A program made the position numbers and the translations under genes. 64,000 nucleotides of DNA from contig JAGSHB010000010.1 in assembly GCA_023954815.1 (NCBI GenBank), positions 1-64,000 of the forward strand, written 5' to 3'. Origin of the DNA: Myxococcales bacterium (GTDB lineage Bacteria; Myxococcota_A; UBA9042). The notes under the pieces are model-generated. The model was not told where the DNA came from. It ran no database searches and saw only the letters and a list, made by a program, of their open reading frames with translations. Of this stretch, positions 11,095 to 22,561 are shown in pieces. Within the stretch, counting starts at the first letter, position 1, and every line of letters starts with the position of its first letter.

Positions 11095-11373
11095 GGAGCC
11101 CCCGTGTTGCAAGCGGTCGGGGTTTATCAAGCGGAGGCAACCGATACAAGGGCTAGGAGCGCCCTCCAGCCCACACCGTGCAGCGAAATTGACATTGCCG
11201 CCCGTACACCCTGCTGGTTTTCTGTTCTATTCGGAGGCCATGAGCGCCCCCCAGCCCAGCAGTCTGCGCCCCAGGGAGTCCTTCTGCGACAAATCGACAA
11301 GATGCGCGGTCTGCTAGACCGAAGCCGTCGCAAGCCGAGAAGGTATGGGCGCGTCGAGATGGAGGGCGCCTCA

Positions 11374-19764: not shown

Positions 19765-19858
19765 GTAGGCGGGTCGCTGCCCCTGAGGGTGGGTGATCAC
19801 CAGAAGCAAGCTGGGTCGACGTGACCGTCACGCATGGATGCCCAAGATGTCGGGCGCT

Positions 19859-19917
19859 AGCAGACTGCGCTCTTTCTCGTTTTTTCGGAGCAGGACTCCC
19901 ATGAAGCGCAGTCTGCT
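19859..19917. repeat. Perfect 12-bp inverted repeat AGCAGACTGCGC ... GCGCAGTCTGCT
   Basis: Arms at 19859-19870 and 19906-19917, 35-nt spacer containing TTTCTCGTTTTTT. Confidence 0.9.
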
Positions 19918-20132
19918 GGGATGGGGAAGTCGCGGCGTGCCGCGACTGGGGGCGCTCGTAGCCCCCCAATTATGAAGAAAACTAGCTGCGTCCTGCGACA
20001 GTCATTTTAATTACGCCGCACGCTGCTGGGATGGGGAAGTCGCGGCGTGCCGCGACTGGGGGCGCTCGTAGCCCCCCAATTATGAAGAAAACTAGCTGCG
20101 TGCTGCGACAGTAATTTTAATTACGCCGCACG
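19913..20132. repeat. Two tandem copies of a 110-bp hairpin-rich unit
   Basis: Unit 1 19913-20022 and unit 2 20023-20132; only two differences seen (tcctgcg/tgctgcg, gtcatttt/gtaatttt). Each unit has AGTCGCGGC-GT-GCCGCGACT and GGGGGC...GCCCCC. Confidence 0.95.
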
Positions 20133-20149
20133 CTGCTAGACTGCGCACC

Positions 20150-22561
20150 ATGGCAAAATCCGGACTTTCAGGCCTACCCCCGAGACGCCCCGTTGAAACG
20201 GCGTTGACCTATCTACCCGGCGTCAGTCGCGCGCGGGCCAAGGCCTTGCTCGATCGTGCCCGCATCGATCCGGATACCCGTACCGACGATCTGAGCGAGC
20301 TGCAGATCGATCTACTTCGCCGCCTGATGCGCGGCTCAGAAGACGATCCCGATCCAACGGACGACAGCGCCGGTGAGGTCTCTCAGCCCTGGCTACATGG
20401 CGCCGCCGTTCAATTTGCCCCCTATCTCGATCGGGTCCGCGCGATGGTGCAGCGCTACCTCGTGGTTCTGCGGCCGTGGGATCGATCATCGGAAGATCCA
20501 ACCCGCAATCCCCTGCCAGCCGGAACAATGCAGACCCTGGATTCAACCTGCCTGCGTTGTCTGCGTGGTGAGGCCCTGGATCCGGAGCGTGTGGCGTACG
20601 TGGGTCGGCTCGAGCGCCGACTCAGCAAGACCTACGACGAGCTCGATCCCCAGTCGGATGCGTCCCGACGTTTCGAAGAGTTGCGGGCTGTATTTGGCCT
20701 CAGTGACCTGGAATGCGATCTGCTCTGGCTGCTGTTGGCTGCGGAGTTGGTCCCGGAGTTTCTCTGGCTGTACAGGGCCCTGTGGCGCGATACCAGCCGG
20801 ATGATGTGGAGCGAGGACTTTCTGTGTCACTCCGTCGATCCCTTTGCCACCCGTGGTGGTGAGTTGCTCAACGCCCTGGACGCCACCGCAACGCTGCAGC
20901 GCTATGGCCTCATCCGCACCGCCAATGACGACGTCAACGCGGCGAGACGCTACCGGGCGATGCCCTTTGTCTCTGGCTTCTTGCTGGGCCGCGCCGTTGG
21001 CCTCGATGACCTGCCCGGCGCGCTTTGGCACGAGGTCCCACTCACCGCTGATGGCGACGAGATTCGAACCGCACCGGTCAGCGGCGAACTCCGCAAGGCC
21101 CTCCAGCGGGGGTTTCGTGGCCGTCGCCGCTTTGTAGTCGAGGGTCCTGCCCGCAATGGCTCCCTGCGAGTGGCGAGGGAGAGTCTTCATTTATTTGGCG
21201 AGAGTTTGCTGGAAGTCCGTCTCGGCGAGCTTCTCAAAGGCGGCGTCGCCCGACTTGGGCACGTGCTGGGGCGGGCGAGGCTTGCGCGGGCGGGCGTGTT
21301 TTTCACCGAAGCCGAAGCTATGGACGAAGGTGATCACGGCGCCGAACAGTTGGCGTCTCTCGTTCGTATCCTGCGCGGCGAGACGACGACGATGTTCTTT
21401 CACAGTCGCGGCGGCTCGATGACCGACAGCGTGCGGATGACGCCGCGGCTGCATTTGGCGCTGCTCAGAGAGTTGGGTTGTCTGGAGCTGCCCACCGCTA
21501 TCCCGTCCATCGGCGAGCGGATTACCCTGTGGAATGAACGGCTCGACAACCTCATGGCGGACGATGAGCGCGAGCTGGCGGTGACCAGCGTCAGCGTGTT
21601 CAAATTCGGTGTGGATGAGATCGATCTCGCCGTGAACCTAGCTGCCGCAAAGGCGAGGCAGCGCGGCGCTAAAAAGGCGCAAGTATCAGTCAGCGACGTG
21701 GAAAAGAGCTGTCGGCAGGTCGCTGCGTCGAGGCTCGCCGGACTGGCGACGCGCATCAACGTACGCGGCACCTGGGAGACGACGGTCTTGCCCGAAGACA
21801 CGGAGCAAGTACTGCGTGAGATGGTGTCTTTCGGCACGTTCGCCGGCACCGTTTTGGACGATCAGGGGTACGGCCGCACCATGGGCTACGGCCGCGCGCT
21901 GACCGCGATGTTCTCCGGTCCGTCGGGTACGGGTAAGACGCTCTGTGCTGGGCTGGTGGCGCGCGATCTGGGCCTGGAGCTGTTCCGGGTCGATCTCGCT
22001 AGCGTCGTCAGCAAGTACATCGGAGAGACAGAAGAGCGTTTGTCGACGCTGTTTGATGCCGCACAGGACGCCGGCATCGCACTGCTTTTTGACGAGGCTG
22101 ACTCGCTCTTTTCAAAACGCACGGACGTGTCGAGCTCTGTCGATCGCTACGCCAACCTTGAGGTCAACTACCTCCTGCAGCGTCTGGAAAATTACGACGG
22201 CGTCATCATCTTGACGACCAACTTTCCGGACTCCATCGACACCGCCTTTCTCCGTCGCATTCGCTTCAAGTCGACGTTCCCGGCCCCCGAAGCGGACGAG
22301 CGTGAACGGTTGTGGCGGGTGATGATTCCGAAGAGTGCGCCGCAACAAGCCGAGCTCAAGATTCGATTCCTGGCCGAAGACTACGAACTCACAGGCGGCC
22401 AGATCCAAAACGCGGTGCTTCGTGCTGCGGTTTGGGCCGCACGGGACAGCACCCCGCTGAACTACGAGCTGCTCGAGCAATCCGCCGAGCGCGAATACAA
22501 AGAGATGGGCCGCGTGGTGCGCGAATATGCGGACGACGAACCAGAAGGAGTGGTGGCATGA
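20150..22561 (+). CDS. AAA+ ATPase resembling contractile-injection-system (Afp15/Pvc15-type) ATPases
   Basis: Walker A FSGPSGTGKT, Walker B ALLFDEADSLFSKR, SRH TTNFPDSIDTAFLRRI; N-terminal VFGLSDLECDLLWLLLAAELVPEFLWLYRALW pattern; unusual extreme N-terminus LPGVSRARAKALLDRARI. Confidence 0.88.
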   Translation: MAKSGLSGLPPRRPVETALTYLPGVSRARAKALLDRARIDPDTRTDDLSELQIDLLRRLMRGSEDDPDPTDDSAGEVSQPWLHGAAVQFAPYLDRVRAMVQRYLVVLRPWDRSSEDPTRNPLPAGTMQTLDSTCLRCLRGEALDPERVAYVGRLERRLSKTYDELDPQSDASRRFEELRAVFGLSDLECDLLWLLLAAELVPEFLWLYRALWRDTSRMMWSEDFLCHSVDPFATRGGELLNALDATATLQRYGLIRTANDDVNAARRYRAMPFVSGFLLGRAVGLDDLPGALWHEVPLTADGDEIRTAPVSGELRKALQRGFRGRRRFVVEGPARNGSLRVARESLHLFGESLLEVRLGELLKGGVARLGHVLGRARLARAGVFFTEAEAMDEGDHGAEQLASLVRILRGETTTMFFHSRGGSMTDSVRMTPRLHLALLRELGCLELPTAIPSIGERITLWNERLDNLMADDERELAVTSVSVFKFGVDEIDLAVNLAAAKARQRGAKKAQVSVSDVEKSCRQVAASRLAGLATRINVRGTWETTVLPEDTEQVLREMVSFGTFAGTVLDDQGYGRTMGYGRALTAMFSGPSGTGKTLCAGLVARDLGLELFRVDLASVVSKYIGETEERLSTLFDAAQDAGIALLFDEADSLFSKRTDVSSSVDRYANLEVNYLLQRLENYDGVIILTTNFPDSIDTAFLRRIRFKSTFPAPEADERERLWRVMIPKSAPQQAELKIRFLAEDYELTGGQIQNAVLRAAVWAARDSTPLNYELLEQSAEREYKEMGRVVREYADDEPEGVVA

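Follow-up and report, generated by a model that had tools for sequence, protein, structure and literature searches.

What is the hairpin-rich tandem duplication that abuts the start codon of an AAA ATPase gene in a 64,000-nucleotide stretch of a Myxococcales genome (hereafter the window), and does it belong to anything larger than this one locus? A first inspection of the letters alone, the sequence-only reading, had offered a non-autonomous mobile element, a structured RNA or leader, or a recombination site. We favour the first, and put at roughly 0.7 the probability that the block represents a new, modular, non-autonomous family of MITE/BOX-like type, which targets CTAG, often lands on stop codons, has a terminator-like end (D) and is moved in trans.

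A dispersed family in two genomes

The window lies on contig C145 of a 6.44 Mb genome in 314 contigs (G000). Searching this genome with the block gave at least 40 further places at 83–91% identity, and a core pattern allowing up to 3 mismatches gave at least 65 matches compared to none for the reversed pattern, so the block is not a chance pattern; the copy counts, here and for the related genome G002, come from searches with scoring caps and are lower bounds. The usual G000 copy is a single unit of about 173 bp. G002 (JAUIAC01, ‘bacterium isolate 5_bin.26’), from the same genus, carries its own family of about 160 bp, with about 75% identity to that of G000 and the same architecture. In a DNA search of 53 genomes the family was found beyond G000 only in G002, a pattern scan of GTDB matched G002 only, and a covariance model run over 52 genomes of the class gave only weak matches elsewhere in the bacterial family. 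Family copies are absent from the sister genome G003, though it has Y1 genes. The element was unmatched in plasmid, phage and IMG/VR searches, and Rfam searches with the window, the element region and a long variant returned no family at gathering score, the best sub-threshold match having 22 bits. Short, non-coding and dispersed in many copies (about 173 bp, at least 65 cores), the element has these properties in common with MITEs.

An assembly artefact, or a plain local tandem duplication of no wider meaning, would be a simpler account, and it is true that the genome is a draft whose contigs break at such arrays: at least 10 copies are no more than about 85 bp away from the end of a contig, which makes array sizes at other loci uncertain. 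However, the copies differ from one another, and more than 60 single copies are dispersed among unique flanks in two independent genomes. As a whole this highly improbable account is refuted, though the copy number at the window locus could be off. That the second window copy is an artefact, a doubt already raised by the sequence-only reading, has little likelihood, given the differences between the two copies and the occurrence of similar tandem arrays, with 110–114-bp spacing, at other loci.

Structure of the element

The window copy consists of one full unit followed by one tandem B-C-D unit (Table 1), and the covariance model matches it at 19857–20029 with 184 bits and again at 20023–20139.

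Table 1. Coordinates of the window copy, its modules and flank, and of a second copy in the window.
Feature	Position	Strand	Basis
Whole element, CTAG to CTAG, modules A-B-C-D-B-C-D	19857..20139	+	Family alignment; ends set by 86 copies and empty site
Hairpin A, left terminal, CTAGCAGACTGCGC ... GCGCAGTCTGCTGG	19857..19919	+	Fold −31.8 kcal/mol
Hairpin B, first copy, GGGGAAG ahead of stem	19928..19947	+	Alignment, covariation
Hairpin C, first copy, GGGGGCGCTCGTAGCCCCCC	19948..19967	+	Alignment, covariation
A-rich tract; read on the minus strand, T-run (TTTTCTTC) after hairpin D	19968..19981	-	At least 5 T of 8 in 79/86 copies
Hairpin D, first (internal) copy	19982..20029	+	9/16 pairs changed on both sides
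Second (tandem) B-C unit: B 20038–20057, C 20058–20077, A-rich tract to 20091	20030..20091	+	Tandem-repeat comparison
Hairpin D, second (terminal) copy, CTAG at end	20092..20139	+	Alignment, covariance model match
TAGACT, likely −10 hexamer of ATPase promoter, regenerated at junction	20137..20142	+	Three-way comparison; promoter role putative
Host flank ACTGCGCACC	20140..20149	+	Empty site in G003
Second, decayed element copy	11170..11317	-	R1 match, 80.4 bits, E 3e-25

The features described at first sight are present: AGCAGACTGCGC at 19859 with its reverse complement at 19906–19917 (the perfect inverted pair, 19859–19871/19905–19917, has 13 nt), two 110-bp copies at 19913–20132 with two differences, at 19992 and 20003, where about two had been given, and GCTAGACTGCGC at 20135–20146 ahead of the ATG at 20150. 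In the register used here the tandem pair is 19907–20016/20017–20126, again 110 bp, with 4 mismatches, the two additional ones lying at the edge. What did not stand is the claim that the 9-mer AGACTGCGC occurs three times and flanks the duplicated block. The first two are the arms of hairpin A, and the third is the terminal CTAG joined to host ACTGCGC, as follows from the empty site in G003, which reads CTAGACTTCGC..ATG; since this third 9-mer is mostly host flank, the picture of a block framed by one repeat in three copies does not hold.

Both families share the module order A-B-C-D. Hairpin A is CTAGCAGACTGCGC..GCGCNGTCTGCTGGG in both species, hairpin B follows GGGGAAG and is AGTCGCGGC/CCGCGACT in G000 and AGCCACGGC/CCGTGGCT in G002, and hairpins C and D are GGGGGCGCTCGTAGCCCCC and CTAGCAGCGTGC..GCACGCTGCTAG. 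The termini are near-identical (CTAGCAGACTGCG...CTGCTAG), with inverted repeats of CTAGCAGACTGCG at both ends that are 94% identical in G002 and 75% in G000. For this four-helix structure across 70 copies, 91.7% of the cells are paired, and 136 cells have changed on both sides compared to 44±9 in shuffles, a control that ignores relatedness among copies, and 12–19 for slid structures, which correct for it. Hairpin B is 97.9% paired, with 2 of 8 pairs changed on both sides. Covariation of the four stems thus supports the word “structured” in the early suggestion, and the outcome that the sequence-only reading had named as refuting it, a block absent elsewhere and devoid of covariation, did not occur: there are at least 65 cores in G000, a family in G002 and covarying stems. 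Palindrome correction at the DNA level could be another source of paired stem changes; the strand signal from wobble columns, G-T versus A-C, is weak (21:20 and 12:5).

The modules occur as A-core-D, as A-(core-D)2 (the window copy), as D-core-D and in truncated copies, and in G002 there are also D hairpins of 43 bp that stand alone and a long form, 242 bp in length, with added sequence in hairpin C. Tandem spacing differs by locus (110, 111, 112 or 114 bp), and the joins fall at CTGCTRG, a sequence that hairpins A and D share in their right arms; recombination at this short homology would shuffle and amplify the modules. The long form is seen at L197, L206 and L195 of G002, with about 82 added bases inside hairpin C, and is possibly ancestral.

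Insertion at CTAG

G003 keeps the neighbouring genes with an empty site that reads ..GGAACG CTAG ACTTCGCGGC ATG, compared to ..GGGCG CTAG (element) CTAG ACTGCGCACC ATG at the filled window site. The element therefore entered a pre-existing CTAG, and a CTAG now stands on both sides. G002 is also without the element here, reading ..CGACGTAGACTCCGGCC ATG with TAGACT kept, as it is in G003, and we found further loci where sister genomes lack it. For the window copy, one CTAG in the empty and two in the filled site fit a duplication of TA or of CTAG; asymmetric insertion 3′ of CTAG may also account for the two-CTAG junction. Across 86 copies the flanks show neither a conserved base beside CTAG nor a direct repeat that extends past it (2.73 observed versus 2.70 in shuffled pairings). 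For a copy on contig C65 the sister homologues have TGA and not TAG at the codon in question, so that a pre-existing CTAG is unproven there. Dispersed copies, precise CTAG termini and sister-genome empty sites strongly support the proposal of a non-autonomous mobile element, while that of a recombination site found no support. Such a small element would insert at an existing CTAG, leaving one on each side, with its mobility supplied by a transposase acting in trans. Readings as attC, CRISPR or retron were rejected, as no feature beyond the hairpins supports them.

Directly before the ATPase ATG is a conserved TGGAC(C)..17..TAGACT, which from its sequence looks like the promoter of a leaderless ATPase mRNA. 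The window insertion would split this likely promoter at its −10 box. The ATPase itself (window 20150–22561, plus strand) has a winged-helix stretch, and its residues 9–62 form a ribosomal S13-like N-terminal segment at sub-threshold level.

Stop codons and a terminator-like end

A terminal CTAG contains a gene's TAG stop in 26/47 copies in G000 and 21/36 in G002, compared to a background of 38/149 CTAGs, on either strand, in 126 kb (Fisher p about 3e-4 in each genome). As the TAG is the gene's own stop in about half of the copies, insertion there leaves the protein intact. In G000 the stop lies at the D-end CTAG in 23 of the 47 copies and at the A end in 3 (p 9e-5), and the D-end TAG belongs to the gene running into the element; this bias is absent from G002, where the 36 copies give 12 and 9. 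The landing is exact at several genes, among them one that we take to be moaA from its C-terminal GG-stop, where the same stop is occupied in both genomes, by a lone D hairpin in the case of G002. At another gene end the G000 and G002 copies point in opposite directions and are separated by a few bases, both with a CTAG stop. Each species has copies of its own family at the same gene ends in L038/L070, L143/L079 and L039/L218.

Read from the D end, the stop codon is followed by hairpin D (about −27 kcal/mol) and then by TTTTCTT, a T-run found in nearly all copies (Table 1) and also after the unrelated outer hairpins of variants L285 and L276. A GC-rich hairpin followed by a T-run in the direction of the ending gene resembles the layout of an intrinsic terminator. 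A generic terminator scan of the element region reported none under a loop rule of 3–8 nt, which leaves out D. Judged by this layout, the element is probably a portable intrinsic terminator from its D end, a role in which insertion at gene ends would be harmless or useful.

These observations might also be read as a functional gene-end module, a terminator or structured 3′ UTR RNA which selection and gene conversion, and not the activity of a mobile parasite, would preserve and multiply. Stop-codon placement with the T-run, the same run after unrelated D-type hairpins (L285, L276), compensatory changes in the stems and the presence of copies in both species at several orthologous gene ends all agree with such a module. 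However, nearly half of the copies lie away from stop codons, the window copy sits in a likely promoter, the exact CTAG ends and empty sites point to insertion, and the strand-specific wobble signal is weak. We consider a gene-end module of this kind decidedly unlikely.

Candidate transposases

If the element is mobile and non-autonomous, which protein would move it? No autonomous copy between the terminal inverted repeats was found in the G000 and G002 drafts, and among the Y1_Tnp and DDE_3/IS630 genes of these draft genomes no transposase has matching ends. Y1_Tnp genes are multiple in G000, G002 and G003, and one could suppose a REPIN/BIME-like system in which a Y1 (HUH) transposase, acting in trans, moves palindromic hairpins with CTAG as conserved foot in the form of single-stranded DNA. 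With REP/BIME/REPIN sequences and their RAYT (Y1) partners the element shares paired palindromic hairpins around a linker, solo hairpins (in G002) and intergenic position, and such movement needs no target duplication past one CTAG. However, the hairpin foot of REP/BIME/REPIN is GTAG/GGAG and here it is CTAG; the element and its termini occur at 0/24 Y1 loci, so that Y1_Tnp/RAYT was rejected as partner; the G000 Y1 genes examined are flanked by a different repeat (GTGCCAGGCGTTTCGCGAAA type); and G003 has Y1 genes with no copy of the family. A system of this kind seems to us unlikely. The G000 Y1 loci, L146–L169, have ORFs of 325–408 aa and their own conserved end repeat, GTGCCAGGCGTTTCGCGAAA / TTTCGTGAAACGCCTGGC, and are likely a RAYT-REP system separate from the element.

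IS630/DDE_3 was likewise rejected as partner, being absent from G000 and represented in G002 by a lone copy with different ends. This copy, L314 on contig C835, is an IS630-family element that has a CTAG site on either side and CTAGTA..AAGTGTCTCCCTGGTT as its ends. By analogy, for our preferred reading of a trans-moved family a DDE transposase would most likely be the actor, because CTAG targeting is known for IS630 and for the IS5-like MITEPsy1.

Relation to known elements

Closest in kind are BOX elements and CTAG-targeting MITEs. The BOX elements of Streptococcus pneumoniae have the form boxA-(boxB)n-boxC, with terminal inverted repeats and strong predicted folding (PMC3049150). Like them, as far as their description goes, the element is a small modular interspersed repeat with a variable tandem internal module, having modular ends in A-core-D, A-(core-D)2 and D-core-D; unlike them, it targets CTAG, often as a stop codon, it carries a terminal hairpin within its tandem unit, and it resides in an unrelated, GC-rich host. 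In Pseudomonas syringae, MITEPsy1 is an IS5-like MITE of about 100 nt that inserts at CTAG (or YTAA) with duplication of the tetranucleotide (PMC3189936). It is thus similar in being non-autonomous and inserting at CTAG, but the terminal repeats are different (GGAAGGTCTGAAAAAGCC), and a four-hairpin core and modular arrays are unreported for MITEPsy1. For IS630 / Tc1-mariner the target is the TA in CTAG, with TA duplication, in the work of Tenzen and Ohtsubo (1991) as it is cited in PMC2170065; a MITE of that type would match our junctions exactly, yet G000 has no DDE_3 gene, and the sole IS630-type copy in G002, though between CTAG sites, has other termini.

The element studied here is unusual in how often it lands precisely on a stop codon while carrying an end that resembles a terminator. 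The repeat is uncatalogued and apparently lineage-restricted, and combines covarying structure, defined ends and empty sites with a stop-codon preference that spares the protein. It makes testable the idea of a mobile element that spreads by supplying the ends of genes with a ready transcription terminator, and CTAG, the terminal inverted repeat and GGGGAAG-stem-CTGGGG together provide a genomic signature for tracing the transposase.

Variant units

The motif GGGGAAGYC-stem-GRCTGGGG occurs with other stems in another genus (g7; G009, 6 copies), once in G003, and in G000 among the variant copies. A motif search of 379 genomes of the phylum was convincing only within this bacterial family; isolated matches outside it had no convincing palindrome and were taken as chance. 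At L285 1–420 (G000 contig C13) variant units (GGCCCGTACGC..AAGCCTGAC..GTCAG..CTGG) form a tandem array; the copy that closes it has another outer hairpin (ATAAGACAAATGC), and the TAA of this hairpin serves the adjacent gene as its stop codon.

There is some room, if little, for a family-specific class of structured mobile sequence, having as its heart GGGGAAG-hairpin-CTGGGG-hairpin-CCCC with a T-run, and replaceable outer hairpins that bring the stop (TAG, or TAA in L285). It would spread by targeting gene ends as a portable terminator, and the intermediate, possibly RNA or a single strand, would be recognised by a protein.

The decayed copy in the window (Table 1) has a C-like fragment just outside it, at about 11150–11169. 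At this locus the BLAST blocks of G003 leave 66 bp compared to 207 bp in G000, and the spacers are shorter in G001, G002 and G003.
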